Positions 4,055 to 19,597 of a stretch of DNA of 20,686 nt are shown one piece after another. Every line of letters starts with the position of its first letter. Position 1 is the first letter of the stretch. The stretch is from a virus, in the IMG/VR virus record IMGVR_UViG_3300042345_000372, positions 1-20,686 of that record; one strand, given 5' to 3'. The position numbers and the translations under genes are program-made. The notes beneath the pieces were generated by a model. The model did not search any database. It was not told where the DNA came from and saw only the letters and a list, made by a program, of their open reading frames with translations.

Positions 4055-4058
4055 ATTC

Positions 4059-4939: not shown

Positions 4940-4940
4940 A

Positions 4941-7927: not shown

Positions 7928-7930
7928 GGT

Positions 7931-8437: not shown

Positions 8438-8440
8438 ATT

Positions 8441-8620
8441 TTATTTTTTATTGTTAAACATTTTATTTACAAGTAGGTTAGGATTGTTTAGTGCTTCTTT
8501 TCTTTTAGCACATCCACAATCTTTACCTGTTGCTTTTGAAACAGTATCTACTACTTTTTTAATTCCTGTTGCTGTTGTTATCTTTTCAATAACATCACCC
8601 ATTCCTTTAGTCTTTCCCAT
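8441..8620 (-). CDS. 59-residue DCGC-motif phage peptide
   Basis: An ORF of 59 codons from the ATG at 8620 to the TAA at 8441-8443. It reads MGKTKGMGDVIEKITTATGI, then KKVVDTVSKATGKDCGCAKR, then KEALNNPNLLVNKMFNNKK. An amphipathic repeat (V-x-x-x-T-x-A-T-G-I/K occurs twice) is followed by the D-C-G-C-x-K-R-K-E-x-L-N motif, which I recognise from short virion-region proteins of marine and gut Bacteroidota phages; function unknown. The stop is 3 bases from the next ATG, and a good -7 promoter element lies 18 bases upstream of the start. Confidence 0.82.
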   Translation of the reverse strand: MGKTKGMGDVIEKITTATGIKKVVDTVSKATGKDCGCAKRKEALNNPNLLVNKMFNNKK

Positions 8621-8637
8621 TTGATTTTATTTTTTCA

Positions 8638-8645
8638 CAAAGTTA
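8638..8645 (-). promoter_or_regulatory. -7 promoter element before the structural/lysis block
   Basis: The minus strand reads TAACTTTG, a full match to the Bacteroidota -7 consensus TAnnTTTG, in an AT-rich gap 18 bases upstream of the 59-residue gene. The same octamer occurs upstream of the 82-residue gene at 12827-12834. No clear -33 TTTG is seen, so phage-specific activation is possible. Confidence 0.5.
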
Positions 8646-8699
8646 AACAAAATTATCTTATACTTTTGAAACTTTTCTGCCCATACCAACTCTTTTCAT

Positions 8700-8990
8700 T
8701 TAGTATTTACCTCTTCGATTACTTGGATTGCTTGTTGTTGAACCACCCGGTCCTGCCCATAGATTTTTGCAGGCCCAATATCTTGGTGTTAATTTATCAT
8801 TTGCAGTATCACAACTGTGTCGTGCTTTAAAACTCTTTCTTGCCGCAGCGCTATAGTTATTGCCATAGCCCTTTGCTCCAAAGTGTAGCAATTTCTCTGT
8901 GCCATTGCTACATGCCTTGACCATTTTCTTTTTGCCCGCCCTGTTTGAAGGAACAGGACTATTGCACTTCATGTTTTCTTTATTTGCCAT
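8700..8990 (-). CDS. conserved phage protein, DUF5872-like basic C-x-W fold
   Basis: A 96-residue basic protein. The core GAKGYGNNYSAAARKSFKAR, then HSCDTANDKLTPRYWACKNLW matches a motif common in phage proteins: K-S-F-(R/K)-A-R-H-x-C-(D)-x-A-x-D-K-x-T-x-R-Y-W-x-C-(K). I associate it with the DUF5872-type small proteins encoded near structural genes. Cys and His spacing could bind a metal. Function is unknown. It shares one base with the upstream gene's stop and is likely co-transcribed with the two small genes before it. Confidence 0.75.
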   Translation of the reverse strand: MANKENMKCNSPVPSNRAGKKKMVKACSNGTEKLLHFGAKGYGNNYSAAARKSFKARHSCDTANDKLTPRYWACKNLWAGPGGSTTSNPSNRRGKY

Positions 8991-9256
8991 TAGCTAGAAA
9001 GTCCATCACCTTGAAAAGGTCGGTTAAAAGTTGATAGCCCTACTAATCTAGTCCTACCGCTACTACCTGAATCTCTATTTGCTCGTCTTCGTGCATATGA
9101 GGCAGACGCAATCTCTTTATTTTTTATTCTTTCCGCATCTCTTGTAGCAGCATTTTTAGCAATCGCCTCAACAGCCTTGTTATTAAACGCAAGTTTGTCA
9201 GCAGTGATTTTTTCCTGCTCTGCAGTTGTCTTAACTGATTTATCTTTATCGCCCAT
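8990..9256 (-). CDS. small charged helical protein, unknown
   Basis: An 88-residue protein that is Lys/Ala-rich and probably helical for residues 1-60 (AEQEKITADKLAFNNKAVEA, then ATRDAERIKNKEIASASYARR), with a glycine/serine-rich basic tail (RDSGSSGRTRLVGLSTFNRP). No family is recognised. It is the second gene after the leftward promoter at about 9500 and ends on the first base of the DUF5872-like gene, indicating operon structure. A virion-associated or assembly role is a guess from position only. Confidence 0.7.
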   Translation of the reverse strand: MGDKDKSVKTTAEQEKITADKLAFNNKAVEAIAKNAATRDAERIKNKEIASASYARRRANRDSGSSGRTRLVGLSTFNRPFQGDGLSS

Positions 9257-9266
9257 TTTAGTTTAT

Positions 9267-9461
9267 TTAAAAATTAGAAGGAGGTAATGGAGTATCTCTT
9301 TCCTTTAAATTAATTATACGGTTCTCAACTCTCGCTGCTCTTCCTAATAATCTATCGGCTTTTCTTTCTCTTCCTTCATCTACAGCTTTTTTGCCTCTGC
9401 TTACAAGTTTAGCTTCTTTCTCTTTTAATCTTTTGATTTTTTTTTCGTCATCAAATGGCAT
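9267..9461 (-). CDS. small basic coiled protein, unknown
   Basis: A 64-residue protein, almost entirely charged helix (DDEKKIKRLKEKEAKLVSRG, then KKAVDEGRERKADRLLGRAA, then RVENRIINLKER) ending in PLPPSNF. The E/K/R heptad pattern suggests a coiled coil. It is the first gene of the leftward block, 36 bases downstream of the -7 element. Function is unknown. Confidence 0.72.
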   Translation of the reverse strand: MPFDDEKKIKRLKEKEAKLVSRGKKAVDEGRERKADRLLGRAARVENRIINLKERDTPLPPSNF

Positions 9462-9489
9462 GGCTTTTGTTTTTTAAGTTATTATGAAT

Positions 9490-9497
9490 TAACTTTA
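9490..9497 (+). promoter_or_regulatory. near-consensus -7 element for the rightward regulator gene
   Basis: TAACTTTA differs from TAnnTTTG only in the last base and lies 28 bases before the ATG at 9526. The surrounding 13 bases, AATTAACTTTACA, recur exactly at 13937-13949 in front of another rightward gene. It abuts the opposing leftward element at 9498-9505. Confidence 0.35.
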
Positions 9498-9505
9498 CAA
9501 AAGTA
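9498..9505 (-). promoter_or_regulatory. -7 promoter element of the leftward virion operon
   Basis: The minus strand reads TACTTTTG, a full match to TAnnTTTG, 36 bases upstream of the first leftward gene (start at 9461). It is directly adjacent to the rightward -7-like element, so the two transcription starts face apart from the same few bases. Confidence 0.5.
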
Positions 9506-9525
9506 ATAAAATAAAATCTAATAAA

Positions 9526-9969
9526 ATGAAAAAAATAGGTAATGACTATCTAAAATATTGGCGTGTAATAAGATATTACATCAAAAATAAGTATGGTTTG
9601 ACACAAGCAGACCTTGATATACTGCTTTTTTTGTACTCAGAACAGTATTTTACAAAAGATAAGTTCAAAGAGTTCGATGCACTTGTTAGTTGGAACGTAA
9701 ATAGGTTCGATACCCTGCTAAGAGATGGGTGGATAGTTGTATTTCGTAGGGGATTTAAAGGAAGTAGGGCAATATATGAGCTGCCGTACAAAACAAGCAG
9801 GATGATCACCTCAATATACAAAAAACTTAGCGGTGAAGAGATACCAATGGGTAGTGGCAACACTATGTTTGAGAAAAATGTGAAGTATACCGACAAGGTA
9901 TACCGAAATATGATTATGGAGATGAACAAGTCCTTTAAAGGTAAGGAAAGGACAGTAAATAAACTATAA
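9526..9969 (+). CDS. winged-helix-like DNA-binding protein, putative phage regulator
   Basis: A 147-residue protein and the only rightward gene in the left two-thirds of the window. Residues about 20-75 read as a helix-turn-helix with wing: KNKYGLTQADLDILLFLYSE, then FTKDKFKEFDALVSWNVNRF, then DTLLRDGWIVVFRRGFKGS, similar to MarR/PadR-type winged helices (helix 2-3 then a beta wing with F-R-R-G). The C-terminal part (TSRMITSIYKKLSGEEIP to the end) is helical and basic. Its promoter overlaps that of the leftward structural operon, so it could control its own and virion gene transcription; that is inference. Its 3' end overlaps the convergent groES end by 6 bases. Confidence 0.7.
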   Translation: MKKIGNDYLKYWRVIRYYIKNKYGLTQADLDILLFLYSEQYFTKDKFKEFDALVSWNVNRFDTLLRDGWIVVFRRGFKGSRAIYELPYKTSRMITSIYKKLSGEEIPMGSGNTMFEKNVKYTDKVYRNMIMEMNKSFKGKERTVNKL

Positions 9970-10221
9970 TACCACCACTACATCGTTCTCAGTGATGACT
10001 GTACACTGAACGTCATTGATTATCATGGTAAAACTACGACCCTTGTCGTAATATATCTCATCACCCTCGTTGATGACCAACACATCTGTGCCTGATTTTT
10101 GCACAACGGCGCGTTTATATCTCAGTTGATTGGCATCGTCACCCGATAAAATCAATCCCGACTCAGTTTTAATCTCTTCGTCAATGTTTTTTACTACAAT
10201 GTATTTTCCAATTGGTTGCAT
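9964..10221 (-). CDS. groES: phage GroES co-chaperonin
   Basis: This 85-residue protein has the GroES layout: PIGKYIVVKNIDEE, then the mobile loop with the GroEL-binding hydrophobic tripeptide (SGLILSG, compare G-G-I-V-L in E. coli), then KRAVVQKSG, then the second barrel half INEGDEIYYDKG and the closing strands VQCTVITENDVVVVL. It caps the GroEL ring and forms the folding chamber. It is slightly shorter than bacterial GroES (about 95) with a reduced roof loop, as often in phage versions that must enclose large capsid proteins. The order here is groEL, HNH gene, groES, leftward, unlike the groES-groEL order of bacteria. Confidence 0.95.
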   Translation of the reverse strand: MQPIGKYIVVKNIDEEIKTESGLILSGDDANQLRYKRAVVQKSGTDVLVINEGDEIYYDKGRSFTMIINDVQCTVITENDVVVVL

Positions 10222-10706
10222 CTTTTGTTTTTTATGTTTTTAGCTCTAAAGTTGTCCGTTTGTGAGTGACAGTTCGGACAAAGTATTTGTAAATTTTGTA
10301 ACTCGTTGTTCTTATTGTTGCCATCTATGTGGTGTACCTCAAGCGTTATAGGGTTATCTAACCATTTTGAAGTGTTACATAGCTCACAACAATTCTCTAC
10401 GTCTACTATTAATATCTTTCTTAAGGTTTGTATGTGTAACTTCTCTCCATTAAATAGTCTATCGTAAGCTTTTTTCTTCCAAGACTCAAGTTGCTTGAAC
10501 CTCTTCTCTTCAGAACCATTCGCCTTGTCCCAATCAACCAAAGAATAAGTCCCATCTAACCACTTTCTTTTAGTTATACAGCTCTTCTTCTCCTTTGTTT
10601 GGGCTGAAAAACTCCGCGTGTTCCTGCAAGATATGCTACAATAGTTTATCGTTCCTTTTTTAGGAACAAACTTCTTATCACACTTCCTACAATTATTGTG
10701 ACTCAT
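10194..10706 (-). CDS. HNH endonuclease inserted between groEL and groES
   Basis: From the ATG at 10706 the protein has 170 residues. It starts MSHNNCRKCDKKF with a C-x2-C ... C-x3-C zinc finger (residues 6-27), then a basic helical linker, then an HNH nuclease core: CELC (107-110), EVHHIDGNNKNNELQNLQIL with the catalytic His pair, and CPNCHSQ (143-149) completing the beta-beta-alpha-metal site. It is a free-standing homing-type HNH enzyme. Its 5' end overlaps the end of groEL by 14 bases and its 3' end overlaps the groES start by 28 bases. An in-frame ATG at 10727 would add seven residues (MLQWRGH) inside groEL; the later start is chosen because MSHN-C-x2-C is a natural N-terminus for such fingers. 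Confidence 0.93.
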   Translation of the reverse strand: MSHNNCRKCDKKFVPKKGTINYCSISCRNTRSFSAQTKEKKSCITKRKWLDGTYSLVDWDKANGSEEKRFKQLESWKKKAYDRLFNGEKLHIQTLRKILIVDVENCCELCNTSKWLDNPITLEVHHIDGNNKNNELQNLQILCPNCHSQTDNFRAKNIKNKRCNQLENTL

Positions 10707-12303
10707 ATGTCCTCGCCATTGTAACAATAGCGTTTGTACTTAGTATTGTAGTTGCCACACTTACAGCGTTCTGTAGTGCACTTCGGGTTACTTTTAGTGG
10801 GTCAATGACACCCATTGAAATCAAGTCCCCCATCTCCATTGTCTTTAAGTTGTATCCAAAGCCATTCGCTTCATCACCGTTATATATACTCTCAACAGAT
10901 AGCCCTGCATTTCTTAGTATCTGAGTCAAAGGTTCTTGTAATGCCGTCTTAAATATATTACACGCTATGCTATGCTCTTCGCTACCTACTCCATTAAGCA
11001 ACTCGTCGAAGCTTATCTCGTACAATGACTTCCCTGCACCTGACAATATACCCTCCTCCAAAGCAGAACGTACTGCACAGACTGCGTCATCAACTCGGTC
11101 ATACAACTCCTTTTGCTCCAAGTCAGTATTGCCACCAACAAAGATTACACCTATACCACCTGTTAGAGATGCGATGCGTTCAACAATAAAGTCTTTGTCA
11201 TTCTTTTGCTTTGCTAGTTTATGGGCATCCCACAGTTGCTTTACACGCTCGTCAATCTCGGATTGGTTTACGTTCTCGTTTGACTTTAGTATCACCGTCT
11301 TGTCACGACCAACAATTACCTTCGCCGCATGTCCTAAGTCGTCATAAGTGATATGACTCAAGTCGTCTCCTGTACCTTCACTGAAGTAAGTAGCCCCAAC
11401 GCTAATGGCAATATCTTGCATTAATTCGTGTTGCTTGTATCCAAAGTTTGGAGGAGCTACTACACATATCTTTAAGTTACCCTTCATGACATTTGCCGCC
11501 AATGTGTTTACAACATTTGCATTGCAAGGAGCTATGATTAATAACTTCTTACCTTCGTTAATGATTGGTTTCAACACGTTCTCTATCTGAAGGATGTTGT
11601 TTATGTCCACGTCAGCCACTAGTATCATTGTGTCCTCAAATACACACTCGTCACGTTTTTGGTCGTTTATAAACAATGGAGAGGTATATCCTCTGTCTAC
11701 TTTTATTCCTGTTGTTGTTTCTGAATATGTATCCGAAGTCTGTGAACGCTCAACAGTCACCATACCGGTTTTGCCAACGTTATTATATACATCCGATATT
11801 ATCGTTCCAATACTTCTATCATTGTTTGCAGAGATAGTTGCAACGTCAACAATCATGTTATCCGTTACATCCGTAGACTTCTCCTTTAACTTCTCCACCA
11901 CCTTAGTAGTTATCTCCGATATGTTTCGCAGAACCTCTGTTCTATTGTGCTTGTCTGTTATTAACTCAAGACCACCTAATACTAAAGACTCCGTTAAGAC
12001 AATCGCTGTAGTCGTTCCATCTCCGGCACTCGTTGCCGTTTGGTCCGCTGCTTCTTTCATCATTCTTACGGCAAGGTTCTCAACAGGGTCTAATAAGTCA
12101 ATAGACCGAGCAACAGTTACACCATCCTTAGTAACAGTTATACCACGCAAGTGGTTGACCGACTCTATTAGGACAGTATTACCACCCGGGCCTAATGTGC
12201 TCTTAACAGCATTAGACATTGTCGTAACTCCTTTGATTAATTTCTTTCGACCTTCTTCACCGAAATGTAAGTTCTTGGGTGAGTACCCTGCACTATCTAT
12301 CAT
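10693..12303 (-). CDS. groEL: phage GroEL chaperonin (group I)
   Basis: This 536-residue protein is a full-length chaperonin subunit. The N-terminal equatorial domain carries TLGPGGNTVL (37-46), TKDGVTVA (58-65) and SAGDGTTTAIVL (92-103), the ATP/Mg-binding and hydrolysis motifs including the two essential Asp residues (60 and 95). The apical domain is present, and the C-terminal equatorial part has YDRVDDAVCAVRSALEEGIL followed by SGAG, containing the third catalytic Asp of VxDA. It ends ARTYESQ without the flexible GGM tail of bacterial GroEL. Sequence departs clearly from bacterial GroEL, so it is a phage lineage, presumably folding capsid or other virion proteins with the phage GroES. A TAnnTTTG element lies 27 bases upstream. 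Confidence 0.98.
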   Translation of the reverse strand: MIDSAGYSPKNLHFGEEGRKKLIKGVTTMSNAVKSTLGPGGNTVLIESVNHLRGITVTKDGVTVARSIDLLDPVENLAVRMMKEAADQTATSAGDGTTTAIVLTESLVLGGLELITDKHNRTEVLRNISEITTKVVEKLKEKSTDVTDNMIVDVATISANNDRSIGTIISDVYNNVGKTGMVTVERSQTSDTYSETTTGIKVDRGYTSPLFINDQKRDECVFEDTMILVADVDINNILQIENVLKPIINEGKKLLIIAPCNANVVNTLAANVMKGNLKICVVAPPNFGYKQHELMQDIAISVGATYFSEGTGDDLSHITYDDLGHAAKVIVGRDKTVILKSNENVNQSEIDERVKQLWDAHKLAKQKNDKDFIVERIASLTGGIGVIFVGGNTDLEQKELYDRVDDAVCAVRSALEEGILSGAGKSLYEISFDELLNGVGSEEHSIACNIFKTALQEPLTQILRNAGLSVESIYNGDEANGFGYNLKTMEMGDLISMGVIDPLKVTRSALQNAVSVATTILSTNAIVTMARTYESQ

Positions 12304-12329
12304 ATTGTTATTTAATTAAATTGTTGATG

Positions 12330-12337
12330 CAAAGATA
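12330..12337 (-). promoter_or_regulatory. -7 promoter element of the groEL operon
   Basis: The minus strand reads TATCTTTG, a full match to TAnnTTTG, 27 bases before the groEL ATG and followed by an AT-rich leader. It would give groEL-HNH-groES a transcript independent of the small gene upstream, which ends in a hairpin. Confidence 0.55.
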
Positions 12338-12511
12338 TAAACTAAATTGTAATAAAAATATTTTTTTTAAAATAATCAGATGTCAATTTAATTTTTCCCT
12401 ATATATATATATATATTATATTAATATATGTGTATTTCTCTCACTGTATTTTCTTTTTAAAATCGACATAATCGACATTAAAAGAATAAAGTATTAATTA
12501 CTAATTAGTTA

Positions 12512-12552
12512 CAAAAATAAAAACGACACAGAATTAACACTAATTAGTGTCG
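12512..12552 (-). terminator. hairpin terminator after the 82-residue gene
   Basis: On the minus strand, CGACAC (complement of 12547-12552) pairs with GTGTCG (complement of 12524-12529), with an A/T-rich loop, and is followed by TTTTTATTTTTGT. The stem has six pairs and starts four bases after the stop of the leftward gene at 12557. It is short, so termination may be partial; the inner palindrome ACACTAATTAGTGT offers a competing fold. Confidence 0.5.
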
Positions 12553-12556
12553 ATAA

Positions 12557-12805
12557 TTACTTTCTACCCTTAAAAGACATCATTACTTCCATTCCTTCTT
12601 CTCTCATCTCTGCTTTCATGTCTCCTAATGCAACAGCCTCAGAATACATTTCTATCTTCTCAGCTCTCTTCATAGCCTTTCTTAACTCCGCAGCTTTCTC
12701 AATTCCATTCTTACCATCAGGTCGGTTATTGATTAATCTACCATCTTTTACTGTTAGTCCGTCATTCATTAAACTATAAATGCTACCAAATTTTTTTCCA
12801 ATCAT
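12557..12805 (-). CDS. small hypothetical protein
   Basis: An 82-residue protein starting MIGKKFGSIYSLMNDGLTVK, with DGRLINNRPDGKNGIEKAAE, then a charged helix ELRKAMKRAEKIEMYSEAVA, and ending MSFKGRK. No domain is recognised; the C-terminal helix could be a short oligomerisation or nucleic-acid-binding element. It is the only leftward gene between groEL and the divergent non-coding region, with its own TAACTTTG promoter element and its own hairpin downstream. Confidence 0.68.
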   Translation of the reverse strand: MIGKKFGSIYSLMNDGLTVKDGRLINNRPDGKNGIEKAAELRKAMKRAEKIEMYSEAVALGDMKAEMREEGMEVMMSFKGRK

Positions 12806-12826
12806 GTCTCTTGTTTTAGTGAGTTA

Positions 12827-12834
12827 CAAAGTTA
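12827..12834 (-). promoter_or_regulatory. -7 promoter element of the 82-residue gene
   Basis: The minus strand reads TAACTTTG, a full match to TAnnTTTG and identical to the element at 8638-8645. It lies 21 bases upstream of the ATG at 12805. Confidence 0.5.
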
Positions 12835-13250
12835 TAAAATTTTATCAGATAATAGGAGGTGATGGGTTATGGTATGGTATGGCGCCGCCGATCCACGTGG
12901 GAAACTCGATTTTTTCGAGGTGGGTGGGGGGCAAATTTCGAAAATCACTTGCGTTTTTTTTGGCTTTTTATAGTGCATTCGAGTGCACAAAATCATTAAT
13001 TGCCCCGAATCGCTGTAACCCACGCCCACACTACGATACAGCCCGTTTGCCGTTACTCCCTTTGCTCCTTTATCGCTACACTATTACACGCTGAAAGTCA
13101 ATAGGGACGGGCGATTGACTCCATCCTATTCATTTAATCACTTAACAAAGCATAGTGACAAAAAAATAATTAACCCCTCAAACCCTTATAGATACTACGT
13201 TCTTGTTTGTGTGAAAACAACATCTTATTAAATATAGTTCTTTATACAAC
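12835..13250. other. non-coding divergent region with GC-rich block and hairpins
   Basis: About 500 bases separate the leftward 82-residue gene from the rightward operon. The part 12850-13130 is clearly more GC-rich than its surroundings. It holds GGCGCC (12881), the palindrome CCACGTGG (12893-12900), a hairpin CTCGA-TTTTT-TCGAG (12905-12919), a G-run whose GGGGCAA can pair with TTGCCCC near 13000, the first, imperfect copy of the 18-bp palindrome (12972-12989), and an AGTCAAT/ATTGACT hairpin (13096-13120). An exact anti-Shine-Dalgarno match AGGAGGTG at 12854-12861 leads only into a 34-codon frame. No tRNA or known RNA family is recognised. It could be a structured RNA, a replication or control region, or a mobile repeat. 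Confidence 0.55.
12972..12989. repeat. 18-bp palindrome family, copy 1 (imperfect)
   Basis: AGTGCATTCGAGTGCACA differs from the consensus AGTGCACTCGAGTGCACT at two positions (7 and 18). It lies in the non-coding GC-rich block, upstream of the rightward operon, and is followed by ATTAATT as most other copies are followed by similar A/T motifs. Confidence 0.8.
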
Positions 13251-13259
13251 TATTATACC

Positions 13260-13267
13260 TATATTTG
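13260..13267 (+). promoter_or_regulatory. -7 promoter element of the rightward operon
   Basis: TATATTTG matches TAnnTTTG and sits 68 bases before the ATG of the first rightward gene (13336), giving a leader of roughly 60 nt. The region immediately upstream is A/T-rich with no obvious -33 TTTG. Confidence 0.5.
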
Positions 13268-13335
13268 TTGACGATTGGTCGAGGGCATCAATTATAATTT
13301 AACTTAATAGGTTGTGACTTACCACTAAAGAAAAG

Positions 13336-13908
13336 ATGAATAATGCAATTAAGAGAATCAGTGAAACAAGTGTATTAAAGCCGTTAATGATAACGGAAAT
13401 GCAAACGGCAAGAACGCAAGTTAAAGCAAAAACGAAAAGTGCATTTGAGTGCACTTTTAAGTTCGCAAGACTTGTTAAAGAATCAGCCGACTATTTTAAG
13501 ACAAAGCAATGCAAGTCGGACTTAAACGATATCAGCGTAACGTGGACAATGAAAGAGTTTTTCGACAATTTAGGTGAGGGCTTCGGTAAAGAGTGGTGTT
13601 ATAGATTGATTAAAGCCGTTAAACTTGAGTTCAAAACTATTGTAGTAGATGGTAAGGAGGTTAAAGTCAATATGCTTGAAAAGTACCTTGCGACTCAGTC
13701 AAACTTTAGTATTGCAGAATTTATCAAGTTTGCGAGTGACATTAAGGAGGAGAAGGAGAAGGAGGAGTTCAAATTGAAATTGGTGTTCAACGATATCAAG
13801 TTGAGTATCAATTCAAAGGATGAACTTACTACTGACTTGACAAAAGCCGAAATCAAATCGATAATGGTTTTGCTACAACGCAAGATGGATACGATGACTG
13901 AAAAGTAG
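13336..13908 (+). CDS. hypothetical protein, first gene of rightward operon
   Basis: A 190-residue protein of unknown function, mostly helical. Residues 35-40 (SAFECT) are encoded by a copy of the 18-bp palindrome. The central part VTWTMKEFFDNLGEGFGKEW, then CYRLIKAVKLEFKTIV looks like a compact helical domain; a highly charged run KEEKEKEEFKLKL follows, and the C-terminus has TDLTKAEIKSIMVLLQRKM. Its position right after the divergent control region is where phage regulators often sit, and it could be the protein that reads the palindromes, but no helix-turn-helix can be asserted. The start at 13336 follows an A-rich stretch (AAAGAAAAG). Confidence 0.8.
   Translation: MNNAIKRISETSVLKPLMITEMQTARTQVKAKTKSAFECTFKFARLVKESADYFKTKQCKSDLNDISVTWTMKEFFDNLGEGFGKEWCYRLIKAVKLEFKTIVVDGKEVKVNMLEKYLATQSNFSIAEFIKFASDIKEEKEKEEFKLKLVFNDIKLSINSKDELTTDLTKAEIKSIMVLLQRKMDTMTEK
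13438..13455. repeat. 18-bp palindrome family, copy 2 (in CDS)
   Basis: AGTGCATTTGAGTGCACT differs from the consensus at two positions (7 and 9). It lies inside the first rightward gene and is translated as SAFECT; the preceding bases ACGAAA resemble the ACCGAAA or ACCAAA before the perfect copies. Confidence 0.85.
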
Positions 13909-13918
13909 TTCTATCAAA

Positions 13919-13936
13919 AGTGCACTTGAGTGCACT
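13919..13936. repeat. 18-bp palindrome family, copy 3
   Basis: AGTGCACTTGAGTGCACT has one mismatch (position 9). It lies 10 bases after the stop of the 190-residue gene and 3 bases before a TAACTTTA promoter-like element, so a protein bound here would touch the promoter spacer. Confidence 0.88.
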
Positions 13937-13939
13937 AAT

Positions 13940-13947
13940 TAACTTTA
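13940..13947 (+). promoter_or_regulatory. -7-like element downstream of palindrome copy 3
   Basis: TAACTTTA is one base off TAnnTTTG. It is part of a 13-bp sequence AATTAACTTTACA that is identical at 9487-9499. It could drive the lipoprotein gene at 14012 with a leader of about 60 nt, and it directly abuts the palindrome at 13919-13936. Confidence 0.35.
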
Positions 13948-14011
13948 CAGAATTTGCACTTACTTTGGTAGGTGCATTTTTTGTTGCTATAAACTTTTTT
14001 AAAAAACAAAG

Positions 14012-14176
14012 ATGTCACATAAACAAACAAACAACTTTTTTATTATTGCCATTGGATTGATTTTATCCATAGCAATTTTTGTAAGCAGCTGCGAATCGCT
14101 ATCACGGAATAGCTCCGTCAAGTCGCTTAATGAACCGAAAAGTGCACTCGAGTGCACTATTAATAATTTAATATAA
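14012..14176 (+). CDS. 54-residue lipoprotein ending in the palindrome-encoded SALECT
   Basis: An ORF from ATG 14012 to the TAA at 14174-14176. It begins MSHKQTNNFFIIAIGLILSI and continues AIFVSSCESLSRNSSVKSLN, then EPKSALECTINNLI. The hydrophobic core and FVSSC lipobox give a lipoprotein signal with Cys27, leaving a mature peptide of only 28 residues. The last third is encoded by the ~68-bp repeat (14091-14158), including SALECT from the palindrome. A tiny lipoprotein made early by a phage could act in superinfection exclusion, but the mature part is almost entirely repeat-derived, so it may have no specific function beyond membrane anchoring. Confidence 0.6.
   Translation: MSHKQTNNFFIIAIGLILSIAIFVSSCESLSRNSSVKSLNEPKSALECTINNLI
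14091..14158. repeat. ~68-bp repeat, unit A
   Basis: Begins GCGAATCGCTATCACGG and ends with the palindrome. It aligns without gaps to 14260-14327 with roughly a dozen mismatches over 68 positions. It contains a small hairpin GCTAT-CACGGA-ATAGC whose stem is kept in unit B, and CTTAATGAACC before the palindrome. Confidence 0.85.
14141..14158. repeat. 18-bp palindrome family, copy 4 (perfect)
   Basis: AGTGCACTCGAGTGCACT, a perfect palindrome built of two AGTGCACT palindromes 10 bp apart. It encodes SALECT at the end of the lipoprotein and is followed by ATTAATAATTTAAT, as is copy 7. Confidence 0.95.
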
Positions 14177-14186
14177 AACAAACAAA

Positions 14187-14495
14187 ATGAACTACTTAAA
14201 TCTAAATTGGAACTACGGATACGAGGTATCTGAAGAATGCGAAATGTACGAGTTTGAAGGCGACTCGCTATCACAGGATAGCTACGACCTGTCGATTAAT
14301 GAACCCGAAAGTGCACTCGAGTGCACTCTTTATAAGTTAATGGAGATAAAGCAAGTTGAAAATGGAGAGTATGTATTACTCAAGGACAACAAAGTTGCTG
14401 AGAGAGGCTCATACAGAAAATGTAATGAAATGCTTGACGCTTATATTGATGTCTACGAGTGGATAAATGGAATAAGTAATAAGTTAAACCAATAA
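14187..14495 (+). CDS. hypothetical protein with internal SALECT, paralogue of the gene at 14859
   Basis: A 102-residue acidic protein. Residues 1-30 are Tyr/Glu-rich (NYLNLNWNYGYEVSEECEMY), residues 27-47 (DSLSQDSYDLSINEPESALE and CT) come from repeat unit B, and residues 52-102 form a small domain: KQVENGEYVLLKDNKVAERG, then SYRKCNEMLDAYIDVYEWIN. That domain matches the 73-residue protein at 14859 in the pattern (V)-E-x-G-x-Y-x-L-L-x-x-N ... G-x-x-x-x-C and Y-E-W. An in-frame ATG at 14340, just after the repeat, would give only the 51-residue domain; so the longer protein may be a chance fusion through the repeat. Function unknown. Confidence 0.65.
   Translation: MNYLNLNWNYGYEVSEECEMYEFEGDSLSQDSYDLSINEPESALECTLYKLMEIKQVENGEYVLLKDNKVAERGSYRKCNEMLDAYIDVYEWINGISNKLNQ
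14260..14327. repeat. ~68-bp repeat, unit B
   Basis: Begins GCGACTCGCTATCACAGG, carries the same GCTAT/ATAGC stem plus a second stem CGAC-CT-GTCG, then TTAATGAACCCGAAA and the palindrome. It lies 101 bases after unit A and is inside the 102-residue gene. The start GACTCGCTATCAC is repeated again at 17282-17294. Confidence 0.85.
14310..14327. repeat. 18-bp palindrome family, copy 5 (perfect, in CDS)
   Basis: AGTGCACTCGAGTGCACT, encoding SALECT in the 102-residue protein. Followed by CTTTATAAGTTAATGG, where a new in-frame ATG begins at 14340. Confidence 0.95.
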
Positions 14496-14500
14496 AAAAA

Positions 14501-14506
14501 AGGAGG
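14501..14506 (+). promoter_or_regulatory. strong Shine-Dalgarno, unusual in this genome
   Basis: AGGAGG lies 6 bases before the ATG at 14513. Most other starts here have only A-rich upstream sequence, as is usual in Bacteroidota, so this site stands out and fixes the start of the 113-residue gene. Confidence 0.7.
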
Positions 14507-14512
14507 CAGATT

Positions 14513-14854
14513 ATGTATGTAAGAATGAAAGTAGAAAACGAAATGTTACAAGACGCTAAAATGGAGGCGTGGATTCATTATGATGACATGTATCAAGTTA
14601 TAACTTCTAAAGAAAACCAAAAAGTATGGGCTAAAATCATCGGAATAGATGAGAATGGACGCTTTGAAGACTTATTAGGTAGGACTTGCGAGAGTATTAT
14701 TCAAAAGGAGTTTGAAACACTAAGAGAAGCTTTGTATTGGTTAGACGAAAAATGTAAAGCCTTAGTACTCGAGGATTTATCTATCGTAGCATGGAGAGGT
14801 AAACGTGCTCAAGAAAAAATTGATGAGATTAATGAAAATGGATTTTATTTATAA
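14513..14854 (+). CDS. hypothetical protein
   Basis: A 113-residue, mixed alpha/beta protein: MYVRMKVENEMLQDAKMEAW, then IHYDDMYQVITSKENQKVWA and KIIGIDENGRFEDLLGRTCE, then a helix with FETLREALYWLDEKCKALVL, then LSIVAWRGKRAQEKIDEINE. No family is recognised. It is preceded by an exact AGGAGG, unlike its neighbours. A 4-base gap separates it from the next start at 14859. Function unknown. Confidence 0.72.
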   Translation: MYVRMKVENEMLQDAKMEAWIHYDDMYQVITSKENQKVWAKIIGIDENGRFEDLLGRTCESIIQKEFETLREALYWLDEKCKALVLEDLSIVAWRGKRAQEKIDEINENGFYL

Positions 14855-14858
14855 GAAA

Positions 14859-15080
14859 ATGAAGATAATTAAAGTAGAAGGTGGAAAGTATCAGTTACTC
14901 AACCACAATGGAGAGTTAATGTTTCAAGGCACAAAAGACCAATGCTACCTTGTAAGGCAAAATATGATGGATATATCACCAAACTATGAATGGGAGTATA
15001 TGGATAGGATTAGGAATGGTTATCACTCTCACGAAAAGCCGAACAATGAAACCAAAAGTGCACTCGAGTGCACTAATTAA
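14859..15080 (+). CDS. hypothetical protein ending in SALECT, paralogue of the 14340-14495 domain
   Basis: With the start at 14859 the product has 73 residues: MKIIKVEGGKYQLLNHNGEL, then MFQGTKDQCYLVRQNMMDIS, then PNYEWEYMDRIRNGYHSHEK and a tail NETKSALECTN encoded by palindrome copy 6. An upstream in-frame ATG at 14805 would overlap the preceding gene by 50 bases and add a low-complexity stretch (MLKKKLMRLMKMDFIYKK), so the later start is preferred. The body resembles the C-terminal domain of the 102-residue protein. Function unknown. Confidence 0.65.
   Translation: MKIIKVEGGKYQLLNHNGELMFQGTKDQCYLVRQNMMDISPNYEWEYMDRIRNGYHSHEKPNNETKSALECTN
15057..15074. repeat. 18-bp palindrome family, copy 6 (perfect)
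   Basis: AGTGCACTCGAGTGCACT at the 3' end of the 73-residue gene, read as SALECT two codons before the stop, then AATTAATAATTAAAAA. Upstream TCACTCTCACGAAAAGCC and GAAACCAAA resemble the longer repeat in degraded form. Confidence 0.95.
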
Positions 15081-15092
15081 TAATTAAAAAAG

Positions 15093-15130
15093 TGGAAGCC
15101 GAAAAACTTAAGAGTAGGCACAATTAAATT
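15093..15130. repeat. degenerate ~38-bp repeat, copy X
   Basis: Shares GGAAGCCGAAAA, AGAGTAGGC and AATTAAATT, in this order and nearly the same spacing, with 18909-18946. At 18909 the sequence is the 3' end of the 86-residue gene plus its downstream spacer; here it is non-coding, between the 73-residue gene and the amidoligase gene. It may be the leftover 3' end of a lost gene of that family. Confidence 0.65.
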
Positions 15131-15139
15131 CAATTTATT

Positions 15140-16360
15140 ATGAGTAAAAATGAAAATGTAGTAACATTAAGAAATGGGGAAGTACACCCTCAAGAATTAT
15201 GTGTATTCACTCACGAAGAGCAGTGGGAGTTAAGAGAGGATTGTGTCCTTACAAGTATGGAGCGTGAGTGGGCGTTGAATGATGAAGTCCATACTGAGTA
15301 CTATGGTGATACATTCATTGAGGGCAATGAGGATGTGGAATGGTCAGAGTGGCACAATGAGTATATCAATACACAACATAGTAGTTGTAGGTACGGATAT
15401 TATGGTCGAGGGAGTGATGAAACGTACTTTGACTATGGCGATTGTGTTTATTGTGGTGGGGAATACTATGTGAATTGTGATGTGGCTGAATGCCACGACA
15501 TAATTTACAGCGATAGGGCAGGAGAGTATGTCCATAGAGATGATTATGAGGATGATTTGACGAATAACAATGCTAGGTATCAATCACTCTCACGAAGGGA
15601 CAAGACCACTGACAAGACAATGGTGAGGGTTGGCTTTGAAATCGAGAAGGAAGATGATGAGGGGTGTGGAATACACTACGAAGACTTGTACGATAAAACA
15701 GGTTGGGCTAAGGAGTGCGATGGCTCGTTATCGGATTCAAATGGCTATGAATTAGTCAGTCCTACCTTCGACCTATTCACCGATGATATGGACAAGGACA
15801 TCAATGACAATGAGGAATTGAGGACACTGATTAATGCAGACCATTCAAGCAGTTGTGGTGGGCATATCAACATATCTCACGCCAAATATTCGCCTGATGA
15901 ATTGTTTGAGGGGATGTGTGGCTTCGTGCCATTGCTATACTCAATGTATGAGCATAGGCTCGATAAGACATACTCACAAGCCAAAAAGAAGTATGAGTAT
16001 TTCTATACGAGAGATAAGTATTCATCGTTCTACATCAAAAACAATCGTGTGGAGTTGCGATTACCTCCCGCAGTCAAGAGTGTACGGAACTTATTGTGGA
16101 GGCGTGATTTGATGCGAATCATTATGACCAACATCAATGCTTCAGAAATTGATGTACTCAAGATGATTGTCAATCAGAAGAGTAAATTATACAAACACTT
16201 GAGGGTTATTTACACTCAGAGTGAGGTGTTGAGTAAGATTGAGAAGTTTATAATGTACTCTAAGATGTACAATAATAAGGTCATTGACCCAATATGTACG
16301 AAGAACATCAAGTGTGATGGTATGAATGACTCGATAAATCAAAATGAATTAGGAGCATAA
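15140..16360 (+). CDS. putative amidoligase (Amidoligase_2-like, COOH-NH2 ligase)
   Basis: A 406-residue protein with an acidic, Cys/Tyr-rich N-terminal part (about 20-140; CVYCGGEYYVNCDVAECHD at 102-120 could bind zinc; GEYVHRDD at 128-135 is typical of phage members) and a catalytic domain from about 160. The domain shows VGFEIEKED (164-172), W189 and ECDGSL (192-197), NGYELVSP (201-208), SCGGHINIS (238-246) and the basic NNRVELRLPP (301-310). These are the G-F-E-(I/V)-E, D-x-S, E-(V/L)-(V/I)-S-P, C-G-x-H-(V/I)-(N/H) and R-x-E-x-R motifs of the glutamine-synthetase/ATP-grasp-like amidoligase superfamily (Iyer, Aravind and colleagues). It probably forms an amide bond on a peptide, protein or cell-wall substrate. 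The class II amidotransferase gene directly downstream supports this. Confidence 0.82.
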   Translation: MSKNENVVTLRNGEVHPQELCVFTHEEQWELREDCVLTSMEREWALNDEVHTEYYGDTFIEGNEDVEWSEWHNEYINTQHSSCRYGYYGRGSDETYFDYGDCVYCGGEYYVNCDVAECHDIIYSDRAGEYVHRDDYEDDLTNNNARYQSLSRRDKTTDKTMVRVGFEIEKEDDEGCGIHYEDLYDKTGWAKECDGSLSDSNGYELVSPTFDLFTDDMDKDINDNEELRTLINADHSSSCGGHINISHAKYSPDELFEGMCGFVPLLYSMYEHRLDKTYSQAKKKYEYFYTRDKYSSFYIKNNRVELRLPPAVKSVRNLLWRRDLMRIIMTNINASEIDVLKMIVNQKSKLYKHLRVIYTQSEVLSKIEKFIMYSKMYNNKVIDPICTKNIKCDGMNDSINQNELGA

Positions 16361-16385
16361 TTAATAATAACTTAAAATAAATAAT

Positions 16386-17282
16386 ATGTGTATAGCGATT
16401 TTAAATACAAAGGGAGCAACTCTAAAGAAGGGTATACTCAAGAATTGTTGGGACAACAATGGCGATGGTGCAGGTTTGTTGTATATCAACGATGATAAAC
16501 AAATGATGACATTCAAGGAGATGAAGAGCTTCGATGCTTTCTATGAGGAGTATGGTAGAGTCAAGAAACTATATGGTAGTAGAAATATTGTGCTACACTT
16601 TAGGATTAGCACTCACGGAAAGGTTGATGAAACAAATTGTCATCCGTTCTTAGTCAGTGAGAAATTAGGGTTCGTGCATAATGGAATGATATACGATGTG
16701 CCTACAAGCACAGACTATTCAGATACCTATATGTTCAACGAAACAGTATTAAAGTATCTTAACGATGGCTTTGAGTACAACGAGGTCATACTTGATATGA
16801 TGGAGGGATTCATAAATAGTAGTAAGCTTATCTTTCTCAATAATGAAGACCACTATGCTATTGTCAACGAGAAAGCAGGGCATTGGAGCAATAAGTGTTG
16901 GTTCTCTAATAGTTCGTATAAGCAAGTCAATAACTATGTTGATTATGGAGGCATTAAGAAATACAAAAATGATTGGGGTTATGGTTATGGAGCGGGAAAT
17001 ATATATGGGCAGTCGTGGGGCAATTCATATGAGCCGTATGTTTATACCCGTGAGCCTAAACAAGTCGAGCGAGATGAGGAGGAGTTGTTGTGTTACGAAT
17101 GTGGTATGCACTTGTATGACAAGGATGAGATAAACTTCGGCACTTGCACTTATTGTCAGATGGAGCAACACGAGCATTTAAACGATGAGTGCGAGGGTTG
17201 TTTAGGTACAGGTGGGAAATATAATGAGGATTGGAAAGCTATGCTTTGCGAAACCTGTGACAAAGACTTATTATTGGTATAG
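16386..17282 (+). CDS. class II glutamine amidotransferase with C-terminal zinc fingers
   Basis: A 298-residue protein. Met1 is followed by Cys2, the N-terminal nucleophile of Ntn-type amidotransferases after Met removal. DGAGLLYIN (27-35), HFRISTHGK (71-79), NCHPF (84-88) and FVHNGMI (96-102) are the family's glutamine-binding and oxyanion motifs, and the second half of the domain ends near 170. Residues about 236-298 are Cys-rich: CYECGMHLY, TCTYCQMEQH, CEGCLGTGG and CETCDKD give at least four C-x2-C knuckles, likely two zinc ribbons. It should release ammonia from glutamine; with the amidoligase 25 bases upstream it can form a two-gene amidation or ligation system. Such pairs have been described in phages; the substrate is unknown. 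Confidence 0.88.
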   Translation: MCIAILNTKGATLKKGILKNCWDNNGDGAGLLYINDDKQMMTFKEMKSFDAFYEEYGRVKKLYGSRNIVLHFRISTHGKVDETNCHPFLVSEKLGFVHNGMIYDVPTSTDYSDTYMFNETVLKYLNDGFEYNEVILDMMEGFINSSKLIFLNNEDHYAIVNEKAGHWSNKCWFSNSSYKQVNNYVDYGGIKKYKNDWGYGYGAGNIYGQSWGNSYEPYVYTREPKQVERDEEELLCYECGMHLYDKDEINFGTCTYCQMEQHEHLNDECEGCLGTGGKYNEDWKAMLCETCDKDLLLV

Positions 17283-17367
17283 ACTCGCTATCACGAAGGG
17301 GGGTGTCGCATCCATAACGCACAAGAACCAAAAGTGCACTCGAGTGCACTATTAATAATTAAAAATT
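17283..17367. repeat. spacer with a degraded long repeat ending in palindrome copy 7
   Basis: The 85-base gap opens with GACTCGCTATCACGAAGG (from 17282), the same start as repeat unit B, and ends with GAACCAAA, the perfect palindrome (17333-17350) and ATTAATAATTAAAAATT. The middle differs from units A and B. No gene fits; a stop codon precedes the SALECT frame and there is no ATG. Confidence 0.75.
17333..17350. repeat. 18-bp palindrome family, copy 7 (perfect, intergenic)
   Basis: AGTGCACTCGAGTGCACT between the amidotransferase gene and the 72-residue gene. It is the rightmost copy; none is seen in the following 3.3 kb. Confidence 0.95.
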
Positions 17368-17586
17368 ATGATGACATATGACACGTTCTTATTGTCTTGC
17401 CTGATGGTAGATATGGGAATAAATGTGAATGGTATATCTTATGAGTCACTCCCATATGATGTTCGGTTTGACGATGCAAGGAAGACATACAAGATTTTCA
17501 TCTATAGTCCTTCAAATGTACTATCGGAGAATGCATATGAGTGTATGGTAAATTTTTTAAAGGATAATAAAAACATAGAGCTATGA
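17368..17586 (+). CDS. hypothetical protein
   Basis: A 72-residue protein (71 if the second Met of ATGATG is used): TYDTFLLSCLMVDMGINVNG, then ISYESLPYDVRFDDARKTYK and IFIYSPSNVLSENAYECMVN. It looks like a small alpha/beta domain; no family recognised. Its stop overlaps the next start (ATGA), marking a run of coupled small genes that reaches 18178. Confidence 0.68.
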   Translation: MMTYDTFLLSCLMVDMGINVNGISYESLPYDVRFDDARKTYKIFIYSPSNVLSENAYECMVNFLKDNKNIEL

Positions 17587-17786
17587 AAAAACTACTTGAA
17601 ACAGACTTTGTTCTTCACGACAAAGCAAACGACACATTAGTTAAATGGAGTTGGAATGATGATGTTATTATTTTTGGAAGCAAAGAAGAAGCCGATGTCG
17701 ATTGCAGAGGCAATGAAAGTGTAGTCCGATGCACAGAACTATCGGAATATTGGACAAATATATTACTAACCCAAATAAATAAATAA
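17583..17786 (+). CDS. hypothetical protein
   Basis: A 67-residue protein, MKKLLETDFVLHDKANDTLV, then KWSWNDDVIIFGSKEEADVD, then CRGNESVVRCTELSEYWTNI. It seems to be beta-rich then helical; two Cys residues are present. The pattern D-D-V-I-I-F-G-S-K-E-E-A looks like a common small fold (strand, turn, helix) but no named domain is recognised. Coupled to the gene before it by an ATGA overlap and followed 6 bases later by the next gene. Confidence 0.68.
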   Translation: MKKLLETDFVLHDKANDTLVKWSWNDDVIIFGSKEEADVDCRGNESVVRCTELSEYWTNILLTQINK

Positions 17787-17792
17787 ATAATT

Positions 17793-18017
17793 ATGAAACA
17801 AGTAATCAAATTAACAAACATGAATGGAGAAGCTATCTTAATTGGAGTTGAGTCCATTATTAGCGTAAAACTAATTAAAGTCACAGACTCCTCAAAAAGC
17901 ATAGAAAGTGGACTACGAGAAAGCTTCCAAACTAAAATAGAAAGTAGAGGGGCAATGATTAGCACCAACTATGTAAAGGAAAGTGTTGAGGAAATTTATG
18001 AACTAATAAACCAATGA
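17793..18017 (+). CDS. FlbD-like small protein
   Basis: A 74-residue protein: IKLTNMNGEAILIGVESIIS, then VKLIK, a variable segment, then GAMISTNYVKESVEEIYELI. The pattern I-x-L-T-x-x-N-G-x-x-x-x-(I/V) ... T-x-x-x-V-K-E-S-V-E-E-(I/V)-x-x-(L/I)-I matches the FlbD/YvlB-type short beta-alpha fold known from flagellar operons and from many phage genomes. The phage role is unknown; a DNA- or protein-binding module is possible. Its stop overlaps the next start (ATGA). Confidence 0.65.
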   Translation: MKQVIKLTNMNGEAILIGVESIISVKLIKVTDSSKSIESGLRESFQTKIESRGAMISTNYVKESVEEIYELINQ

Positions 18018-18178
18018 TGGAACGTCAATATATTTTCAAGATATATTATTGTGGCGACTTCTTATGTGAGATGATTGCTCACACAAAATGGGAAGCAATA
18101 GATAGAGCCTTCAGCGAGTACGTTGGGAGTATTGACAATTTAACGAGGGAGAAAATAATTGCTAAAAAATTAGGATAA
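18014..18178 (+). CDS. 54-residue hypothetical protein
   Basis: An ORF from ATG 18014 to the TAA at 18176-18178: MMERQYIFKIYYCGDFLCEM, then IAHTKWEAIDRAFSEYVGSI, then DNLTREKIIAKKLG. It has a strand-turn-helix look (YIFKIYYCGDF then T-K-W-E-A-I-D-R-A) reminiscent of small single-stranded-nucleic-acid or adaptor folds, without a named family. The double ATG allows a 53-residue form. The ATGA overlap with the gene before it supports translation. Confidence 0.65.
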   Translation: MMERQYIFKIYYCGDFLCEMIAHTKWEAIDRAFSEYVGSIDNLTREKIIAKKLG

Positions 18179-18193
18179 GTCAATCATTAGTAT

Positions 18194-18201
18194 TACCTTT
18201 G
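18194..18201 (+). promoter_or_regulatory. -7 promoter element before the RadC-like gene
   Basis: TACCTTTG matches TAnnTTTG and lies in the 58-base gap after the gene ending at 18178, 36 bases before the ATG at 18237. It would start a second rightward transcript covering 18237-20572. Confidence 0.45.
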
Positions 18202-18236
18202 TTTCAGTTGAGTATAATTATTAATTAAATAAATAA

Positions 18237-18686
18237 ATGAAGACATATAAATCAGATACACCCGAGATTACGCTAAAGTATAAACATTCGGGCATAGTAA
18301 AGACCAAAATAACAAACTCAAATGATTCGTATTCCTTGCTTAAAGGTATGTTTGATGCAGACACATTAGAGTATTGCGAAAGTTCAGTAGCAATATATTT
18401 AAACAGAGCAAACAATACAATAGGGTGGCAGAAGATTTCTCAGGGTGGCATAACAGGTACAATAATAGATGTTAGAGTTGTTTTAGCAACGGCACTTAAA
18501 TGTGGTGCAACGAACATAATTATAAGCCATAACCATCCAAGTGGGCAATTAAAGTCAAGCGAACAAGACGATGCCTTAACTAAAAAGTTAAGTGATGCGT
18601 GTAAGATAATGGACATAAGGCTATTAGACCACGTTATAATAACAAGCGAGGGATATTATTCATACTCAGATGAAGGGAAAATATGA
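18237..18686 (+). CDS. RadC-like JAB/MPN+ domain protein
   Basis: A 149-residue protein with the JAB metalloprotease-like core of RadC: CESSVAIYLNRANNTIGWQK (Glu48 as the general acid), GGITGTIIDVRVVLATALK, then IIISHNHPSGQLKSSEQDD with His98, His100 and Asp111 as zinc ligands, then LLDHVIITSEGYYSYSDEG. All metal-site residues are present. It lacks the N-terminal helix-hairpin-helix domain of full RadC (about 220 residues), like many phage and mobile-element copies. The biochemical role of RadC proteins is unsettled: nuclease, helicase-assisted recombination and anti-restriction roles have all been proposed. Confidence 0.92.
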   Translation: MKTYKSDTPEITLKYKHSGIVKTKITNSNDSYSLLKGMFDADTLEYCESSVAIYLNRANNTIGWQKISQGGITGTIIDVRVVLATALKCGATNIIISHNHPSGQLKSSEQDDALTKKLSDACKIMDIRLLDHVIITSEGYYSYSDEGKI

Positions 18687-18943
18687 AGAAAGTAGTGTGT
18701 ATAAATGACAAGAACCTACCACAAGGAGCAGAGGTTGTAAACGGAAAAGAGTATTATGTTGTCAATGAGTTTGTAAATACCTTTGACCAAAGGGTGTTTA
18801 TAATATCGGGCATAGTAAACAAGGGGACAACAAAATTTGGGCTTAATTGGTTAGGGTATTGCTCAAGTAGATTTGCAGATTTAGATGACATATCAATTGA
18901 ATATGAATGGGAAGCCGAAAACACTAGAGTAGGCGTTAATTAA
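18683..18943 (+). CDS. conserved phage protein, unknown function
   Basis: An 86-residue protein: VVCINDKNLPQGAEVVNGKE, then YYVVNEFVNTFDQRVFIISG, then GTTKFGLNWLGYCSSRFADL. The combination C-I-N-D-K-N-L-P-x-G-A-x-V-x-x-G-K-x-Y-x-V and G-L-x-W-x-G-Y-x-x-x-R-F-A is one I recognise from many short genes in Bacteroidota and their phages; it looks like a small beta-barrel (SH3-like) fold. Start overlaps the RadC-like stop (ATGA). Its last codons belong to a sequence that recurs at 15093-15130. Confidence 0.75.
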   Translation: MKKVVCINDKNLPQGAEVVNGKEYYVVNEFVNTFDQRVFIISGIVNKGTTKFGLNWLGYCSSRFADLDDISIEYEWEAENTRVGVN

Positions 18944-18946
18944 ATT
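18908..18946. repeat. degenerate ~38-bp repeat, copy Y
   Basis: End of the 86-residue gene (codons for W-E-A-E-N-T-R-V-G-V-N) and the spacer after it; matches 15093-15130 in three blocks of 9-12 bases. See copy X. Confidence 0.65.
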
Positions 18947-18959
18947 AAATTATAAGATT

Positions 18960-19319
18960 ATGGGAAGGTATTACAGTGGCGATATCAATGGTAAATTTTG
19001 GTTCGCCTTACAATCAAGTGATGCAGCAAGTAGGTTCGGTGGCTATGAACATTCACCGAGTGTAATTGAGTATAGCTTTTACGAAGATGAACACCTCAAG
19101 GGTATTGAGGATGAGATAAAGGAAATAGAAGATAAGTTAGGCGAGAAGCTAAGTGTTATCGAAAAGTTCTTTGAAGACAACAATGGCTACAATGATGAGA
19201 TGATTAAGCCATACTTTACTACTGAACAGTTGCGAGACTATGCAGACTTACTATTGGGTAGGGAAATAAGGGATTGTGTTAAGGAGCATGGACAGTGTAA
19301 TTTTGATGCAGAGCTATGA
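18960..19319 (+). CDS. conserved phage protein, unknown function
   Basis: A 119-residue protein starting MGRYYSGDINGKFWFALQSS, a highly characteristic N-terminus that I associate with small conserved phage and Bacteroidota proteins, then DAASRFGGYEHSPSVIEYSF, a long charged helical region (KGIEDEIKEIEDKLGEKLSV), and a C-terminal DYADLLLGREIRDCVKEHGQ. The N-terminal aromatic-rich module (R-Y-Y-x-G-D-I-x-G-K-F) could bind protein or nucleic acid. Function unknown. Its stop overlaps the next start (ATGA). Confidence 0.75.
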   Translation: MGRYYSGDINGKFWFALQSSDAASRFGGYEHSPSVIEYSFYEDEHLKGIEDEIKEIEDKLGEKLSVIEKFFEDNNGYNDEMIKPYFTTEQLRDYADLLLGREIRDCVKEHGQCNFDAEL

Positions 19320-19597
19320 AAAAGAATGCGATTGGAGTTCTGTTCTCAGCAGACAATAGTATAAAAGCATTAGAGTTCAAGGGGTCGCATGTAACCCTTA
19401 AGGAAATGCAAAAATGTGTAGGTGGATACATTGAGTTTATTTACTTAAATGATGGTATGGTGTTAGTTGTAAATGAAGAAGGATTGATACTTAATCTACC
19501 TTACAACGAGAGAGCCACGAACACTGCCTTAGCAGAAGGTAAGAAGCATCATATTGTTGGTGATGTATTATTAATTGGTACTAATTTTATAAAATAA
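19316..19597 (+). CDS. DUF3846-like protein
   Basis: A 93-residue protein: KALEFKGSHVTLKEMQKCVG, then GYIEFIYLNDGMVLVVNEEG, then LILNLPYNERATNTALAEGK and HHIVGDVLLIGTNFI. The order (L-x-x-(M/L)-Q-x-x-V-G-G-x-(I/L)-E ... (V)-x-N-E-E-G-x-x-x-x-L-P-x-N-x-x-A-T ... I-x-G-(D/N)-V-L-(L/V)-(I/V)) matches DUF3846, a small family spread among phages and plasmids. Function unknown; anti-restriction links have been suggested for neighbouring families but not for this protein. Start overlaps the previous stop (ATGA). Confidence 0.8.
   Translation: MKKNAIGVLFSADNSIKALEFKGSHVTLKEMQKCVGGYIEFIYLNDGMVLVVNEEGLILNLPYNERATNTALAEGKKHHIVGDVLLIGTNFIK

Follow-up and report, generated by a model that had tools for sequence, protein, structure and literature searches.

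A dispersed set of phage-specific dyad sites and a probable cognate DNA-binding protein in a group of ~60-kb phages

The window analysed here is a fragmentary virus record of 20,686 bases (IMG/VR IMGVR_UViG_3300042345_000372, positions 1 to 20,686). It contains seven copies of an 18-bp palindrome in and around an open reading frame (ORF) encoding a 190-aa protein, P190 (13336-13908, + strand), and in the genes to its right. The copies at 14141, 14310, 15057 and 17333 are perfect, the copy at 13919 has one change, and those at 12972 and 13438 have two. All seven were listed, at the same coordinates, in a preliminary description made from the sequence alone, and only 0.01 matches are expected by chance (100 dinucleotide shuffles). 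The copies form an operator-like set dispersed in this phage, and related phages have equivalent sets in other spellings. These sets are confined to phages carrying P190, which is probably the reader of the sites.

Site 1 (AGTGCATTCGAGTGCACA, 12972-12989) lies 347 bp 5' of the P190 start codon, site 2 (AGTGCATTTGAGTGCACT, 13438-13455) lies within the P190 gene, and site 3 (AGTGCACTTGAGTGCACT, 13919-13936) lies 11 bp past its stop. Perfect site 4 (14141-14158) occupies the 3' end of ORF 14012-14176, 28 bp 5' of the ATG at 14187. Perfect site 5 (14310-14327) lies within ORF 14187-14495, in the second half of a 101-nt duplication (14091-14191 and 14260-14360, 79% identical). Sites 4 and 5 are not independent because both fall inside this duplication. 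The segment GACTCGCTATCAC is common to both duplication halves and is present again near 17283. Perfect site 6 (15057-15074) encodes the final residues of ORF 14805-15080. Perfect site 7 (17333-17350) is intergenic, 50 bp past the stop of ORF 16386-17282 (+ strand), which encodes a 298-aa protein whose N-terminal region resembles class-II glutamine amidotransferases. The sole match in an Rfam scan, RF02914 (DUF805b cis-regulatory RNA; 15089-15120, + strand), lies 15 nt past site 6, upstream of ORF 15140-16360, and is unrelated to the dyads.

The exact 18-mer was found in one further IMG/VR contig only, L001, a close relative that is ~90% identical to the window. A megablast of the early region against phages gave no match. 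At the place of window site 15057, L001 carries AGTCTGTTTAAACAGACT in conserved flanks, and at the place of site 17333 the contigs G002 and G010 carry AGTGTCTTTAAAGACACT and GTGGCGTTAACGCCAC, respectively. Thus, position and symmetry are retained while the sequence is altered. G010, a 61-kb contig recovered by a variable-stem pattern search through AGTAACCTCGAGGTTACT in matching flanks, has a set of its own, with four copies of GTGGTT-TYRA-AACCAC. Site 2 has a counterpart at the same place and in the same frame in both L001 and G010, and the G010 copy is written in that genome's own half-site, GTGGTT. A GroEL search identified the complete genome MW202828.1 (Caudoviricetes sp. ctfjg026, 60,850 bp), whose early block contains 15 copies of GTGTCG-TTAA-CGACAC, 14 of them perfect; the record bears no such annotation. 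Alignment of a 147-aa winged-helix-like protein encoded nearby in the window (9526-9969, + strand; phrog_17028) found 248 IMG/VR relatives, 80 of which were retrieved. Many of these relatives have a set of their own, and the half-sites used across this ~60-kb phage group include GTGTCT, GTGTCG, GTCCGT, GGGGGT, GTGGTT, ATCCGT, GTATCC, GTCTGT and GTGTGC, among others. Genomes with a set contain 4-19 copies each, compared with a maximum of 2-4 after shuffling. A degenerate 18-mer pattern gives 15 scattered matches in GTDB genomes, about chance level.

The sets share a layout of a 6-bp half-site, a 4-bp centre (usually TYRA) and a second 6-bp half-site, so that the conserved unit is a single 16-bp dyad, mostly GT-NNNN-TYRA-NNNN-AC. 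The preliminary description read the window copies as two 8-bp palindromes one helical turn apart, bound by two dimers on one DNA face. This holds literally for the window, but a self-palindromic half-site (AGTGCACT) is peculiar to the GTGCAC spelling and the half-sites of relatives are not palindromic; two stacked dimers are therefore not implied. An apparent gradient from deviating copies on the left to perfect copies on the right is not general, since the L001 copies at 9617, 10098 and 10318 deviate as well. Confinement of the copies to one stretch is true of the window (12972-17350) but not of whole relatives; in several whole genomes the sites extend into the late region, where they are spaced more widely.

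P190 was found by an iterated hidden Markov model in every examined set-bearing genome or locus that covers the region. Its orthologs share 54% identity in G010 and 21% in MW202828.1, where the gene product is the hypothetical protein UOF82534.1. Automatic calling was applied to the 43 loci that extend 5 kb or more to the right of the 147-aa gene: 32 have gene and set, nine have neither, two have the gene alone and none has the set alone; these loci are mutually related and no formal probability is claimed. The gene-alone loci are L183, which has eight sites genome-wide, and the truncated L200, while the three-copy sets of L155, L168, L170, L175 and L178-L180 are marginal. In 27 genomes, sites flank the P190 gene almost without exception, with one site 0-40 bp past the P190 stop in most of them and another usually ~200-300 bp upstream. 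The association between P190 and the sites is well supported.

Two very close relatives lack both P190 and the sites. Over window positions 3492-12970, L146 has 97.4% identity; its homology then stops two bases 5' of the first palindrome, and that of L144 and L138 stops there too (12969-12970). Neither L146 nor L144 contains P190 or any site, including beside the L146 orthologs of site-adjoining window genes. The L146 ortholog of ORF 14805-15080 stops short of the palindrome-coded tail, and the palindrome upstream of ORF 17368-17586 is absent at its L146 ortholog. Loss of the copies in close relatives was part of a refuting condition set in the preliminary description; copies do vanish, but jointly with the 190-aa gene. 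Aligned with L146 (9481-15188), window positions 12970-19588 appear as an early block that is mostly replaced, with the break adjoining the first palindrome. Farther to the right, the window gene at 18683-18943 and G010 gene 21499 (flipped coordinates) are orthologs, and the palindrome-coded tail IKCGFETTINN is present only in the G010 protein; a site was apparently gained or lost at the gene end.

P190 has no match in Pfam, PHROG or NCBIfam, and thus none to the L5 Rep repressor family, nor do P190 and its orthologs contain a ParB-type Pfam domain, including the ParB N-terminal (CTPase) domain. AlphaFold models were made for the window protein and the G015 ortholog (mean predicted local distance difference test scores 86 and 88). 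In both, the N-terminal part is helical and has two of its helices arranged as in a helix-turn-helix (HTH); a linker joins it to a small C-terminal domain of beta-beta-beta-alpha topology. The predicted recognition helix spans about residues 84-96. A fold search of BFVD returned four relatives, all nameless. Neither the dyad sites nor P190 is described in the searched literature, which mostly excluded subscription papers.

Half-site sequence diverges together with the predicted recognition helix of P190. Half-site distance correlates with recognition-helix distance when GroEL distance is controlled (partial Mantel r 0.41, p 0.0004), also after dereplication (r 0.45, p 0.002). Between distant phages, the mean helix distance is 0.47 when the half-site is shared and 0.75 when it differs, although these pairs are not independent. 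The 147-aa protein shows no correlation with the half-site (r about 0, p about 0.5). Both the 147- and the 190-residue protein had been named in the preliminary description as candidates for gel-shift assays; the latter fits the data and the former does not.

Placement statistics, based on 228 sites in 27 genomes, show that 46% of sites are intergenic, compared with a background of 10.5%. Where an intergenic site separates co-directional genes, it lies a median of 12 bp past the stop and 47 bp ahead of the next start. Read on the coding strand, the centres of intergenic sites are TCAA in 27 cases and TTGA in 12 (p 0.02), a bias that shared ancestry may explain in part. Sites in the early block are commonly about 1 kb apart (0.2-1.5 kb), and their spacing is more regular than random (mean coefficient of variation 0.50 vs 0.78, standard deviation 0.05). 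Bacteroidota-type promoters have a -7 element with the consensus TAnnTTTG. A candidate element of this type, TATATTTG (13260-13267, + strand), precedes P190 in the window, and TAnnTTTG lies 39-90 bp ahead of P190 in many relatives.

These observations suggest, with a probability of about 0.6, that the dyads are binding sites of P190 and that P190 controls early transcription in a stoperator-like manner. An operator family of a phage regulator was one of the candidates in the preliminary description, and it is the one that the evidence favours. The sets and their placement, the strict link to P190, the shared absence and the correlated divergence are direct observations, from which we infer that P190 binds the sites, dimerises, functions through its HTH and affects transcription. 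A P190 dimer would read one DNA dyad through the HTH, the proposed target in the window being GTGCACTCGAGTGCAC, in which GTGCAC half-sites flank a flexible T-pyrimidine-purine-A centre. The rightward early block begins with P190, which probably autoregulates, since sites precede, interrupt and directly trail its own gene. The other sites, often directly past stop codons, would extend its action over the whole early block. P190 produced early would occupy these sites and damp or block passing transcription, so that early genes are shut down or balanced, each phage possessing a private pair of P190 and half-site. Shut-down or balancing of early genes in lytic growth, together with autoregulation, is the preferred role.

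Several observations weigh against this interpretation. The helix signal is modest when the rest of P190 is also controlled (p 0.005; dereplicated 0.02) and falls to p 0.16 once the GGGGGT group is left out. G021 has the half-site GTGCAC, like the window, but a different recognition helix. The HTH function rests on predicted secondary structure because a PDB search with the P190 models gave no significant fold match; the best, obtained with the ortholog, was P1 ParB on DNA (1zx4, E 0.15, probability 0.69). The spacing of the window sites is irregular (169-2276 bp), and the upstream site mostly lies ~150-200 bp ahead of the candidate promoter and does not overlap it. Integrase, serine recombinase and ParA (PF00589, PF00239, PF13614) are absent in 16 relatives, so that a role as a lysogenic repressor or in partition is disfavoured. 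Finally, L001 and G010 also carry perfect palindromes of spellings unlike their main set; unless these were imported recently, a single specificity cannot account for them. The odd site of L001 has the spelling of L195 and L200, and the single site of G002 has the common GTGTCT spelling; import through recombination between phages is therefore likely.

The main rival is that P190 binds the dyads for genome handling, a ParB-like role in which it would mark, condense, segregate or position the genome, or time replication or packaging. The best PDB match, although not significant, is to a ParB, and the layout of HTH, linker and small C-terminal domain is compatible with such a role, as are the regular ~1-kb spacing and the late-region sites of several genomes. 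P190 also adjoins a long non-coding region at a GC-skew switch. However, the absence of ParA in the 16 relatives and of a ParB-type Pfam domain in P190 argues against it, and the sites gather in the early block and in short intergenic gaps past stop codons, as control of transcription would predict. Genome handling is unlikely, though it is the strongest of the competing explanations. A similarly tentative alternative is that P190 represents a new class of DNA-binding proteins, without a relative of solved structure, that in apparently non-temperate phages tags the phage's own DNA at intervals of about 1 kb throughout the genome. Each lineage would have a private spelling, altered jointly in the protein and all its sites, in the manner of self-recognition or chromatin and unlike a classical repressor. 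The non-coding region itself (12840-13330, from the GroEL side to P190) contains a G-run, T-tracts and C-rich stretches, is similar in many relatives and coincides with the GC-skew switch; it is a possible replication origin.

It is improbable that another phage or host protein reads the dyads and that P190 is merely linked to them. The 147-aa winged-helix-like protein encoded nearby, whose MW202828.1 ortholog is annotated 'repressor protein', would be a candidate. This protein was rejected as the reader because it is conserved across spellings, does not covary with the half-site and is 99-100% identical to the window protein in the site-less phages L146 and L144. A host protein would not easily account for the loss of sites together with P190 in near-identical phages. 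ORF 10194-10727 (- strand) encodes an HNH endonuclease-like protein with weak similarity to the HNH region of IscB, and MW202828.1 has an HNH gene at the matching position.

RNA hairpins in early transcripts (7-bp stem and 4-nt loop) that determine where messages end or how they are processed or translated, whether or not a protein takes part, are an explanation of slightly lower standing still, also put forward in the preliminary description. The sites sit between a stop and the following start, compensatory stem changes occur among relatives, and RNA folding is favourable for three of four sites (z -2.9 to -4.0), as it is for any palindrome. Wobbles on the coding strand outnumber A-C mismatches 23 to 10, but a further 24 asymmetries are non-wobble mismatches. 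The genomes G015, G016 and G017 each use two half-site spellings that differ next to the centre, and mixed sites are about as frequent as expected from independent halves (G016, 12 vs 8.7; G015, 5 vs 6.8; G017, 6 vs 6.1). A need for the arms to pair would predict fewer mixed half-sites, in which the loop-closing pair is broken. The sites are trailed by A-rich ATTAATAATTAA and not by a U-tract, unlike intrinsic terminators, and structure alone leaves both the single spelling per genome and the joint loss with P190 unexplained. Specific recognition of DNA is favoured over the RNA form.

Spread of a REP- or RPE-like palindrome as a mobile repeat within phage genomes, the remaining candidate of the preliminary description, is extremely unlikely: several copies lie in frame inside coding sequence and copy number varies among phages, but the flanks are unrelated except for one local duplication, sites hold their places while their sequence changes, spacing is regular and the link to P190 is strict. 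Two further ideas were discarded. An in-frame peptide tag (K-SALECT-N/INN) does not serve as the main explanation since some copies are noncoding and the frame varies among the MW202828.1 copies. The PeSL of T4-type phages is a cassette for modular shuffling; homology does break near some of the present sites, but such a cassette leaves the P190 linkage and the change of specificity unexplained.

Among known systems, the stoperators of Cluster A mycobacteriophages (L5, Bxb1, TipsytheTRex) are many short sites distributed genome-wide, often in short intergenic gaps, with a consensus specific to each phage group and a matching protein (PMC6550527, PMC9283540). The dyad set resembles them in comprising many dispersed copies of a phage-specific site. 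However, each stoperator is an asymmetric site of 13 bp to which a monomer binds, and most stoperators share one orientation (PMC6550527, PMC9283540), whereas the sites described here are 16-bp dyads with a weak orientation bias only. Cluster A phages are temperate, with integrase or ParA, and their bound repressor blocks elongation and confers immunity. Also unlike Cluster A repressors, P190 belongs to no known family, and genes for lysogeny were not found in the 16 relatives. KorB of plasmid RK2 acts from its OB operators over distances of up to 1.5 kb to a promoter (PMC11790492). KorB/OB and P1 ParB/parS share with the present system the use of dyad sites, which there serve one ParB-type protein acting at a distance, and P1 ParB is the top, though non-significant, fold match of P190. 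They differ in that P190 lacks a ParB-type Pfam domain, and has no ParA partner that could be found, and in that the spelling of the sites varies by phage. By analogy, P190 may work like the stoperator or KorB systems while being a member of neither.

The SAS and ESAS repeats of Cluster K mycobacteriophages, with 11-19 repeats per genome at gene junctions (PMC3203893), are similar in number and location. SAS are 13-bp asymmetric sequences of the GGGATAGGAGCCC type tied to start codons, from which the dyads differ in sequence and symmetry. In ESAS, which are inverted repeats of 17 bp, the spacer varies, in contrast to the dyad described here, where both the 16-bp length and the 4-bp centre are constant. 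The Flavobacterium phages of the genus Elemovirus have GroEL and a distant homolog of the 147-aa protein in common with the window group, but Elemovirus elemoF, like Maribacter phage Panino, contains neither P190 nor a site set. The results provide a hypothesis of function for a gene without annotation in a large phage group that is known mostly from metagenomes, the neighbouring 147-aa regulator being encoded by 248 IMG/VR loci. Dozens of natural protein/site pairs are thereby available for studying how a binder and 4-19 scattered sites shift specificity together. Temperate mycobacteriophages are the best-known carriers of dispersed operators, and a similar layout in phages in which neither integrase nor ParA was detected makes one ask what role such sites play in the lytic cycle.

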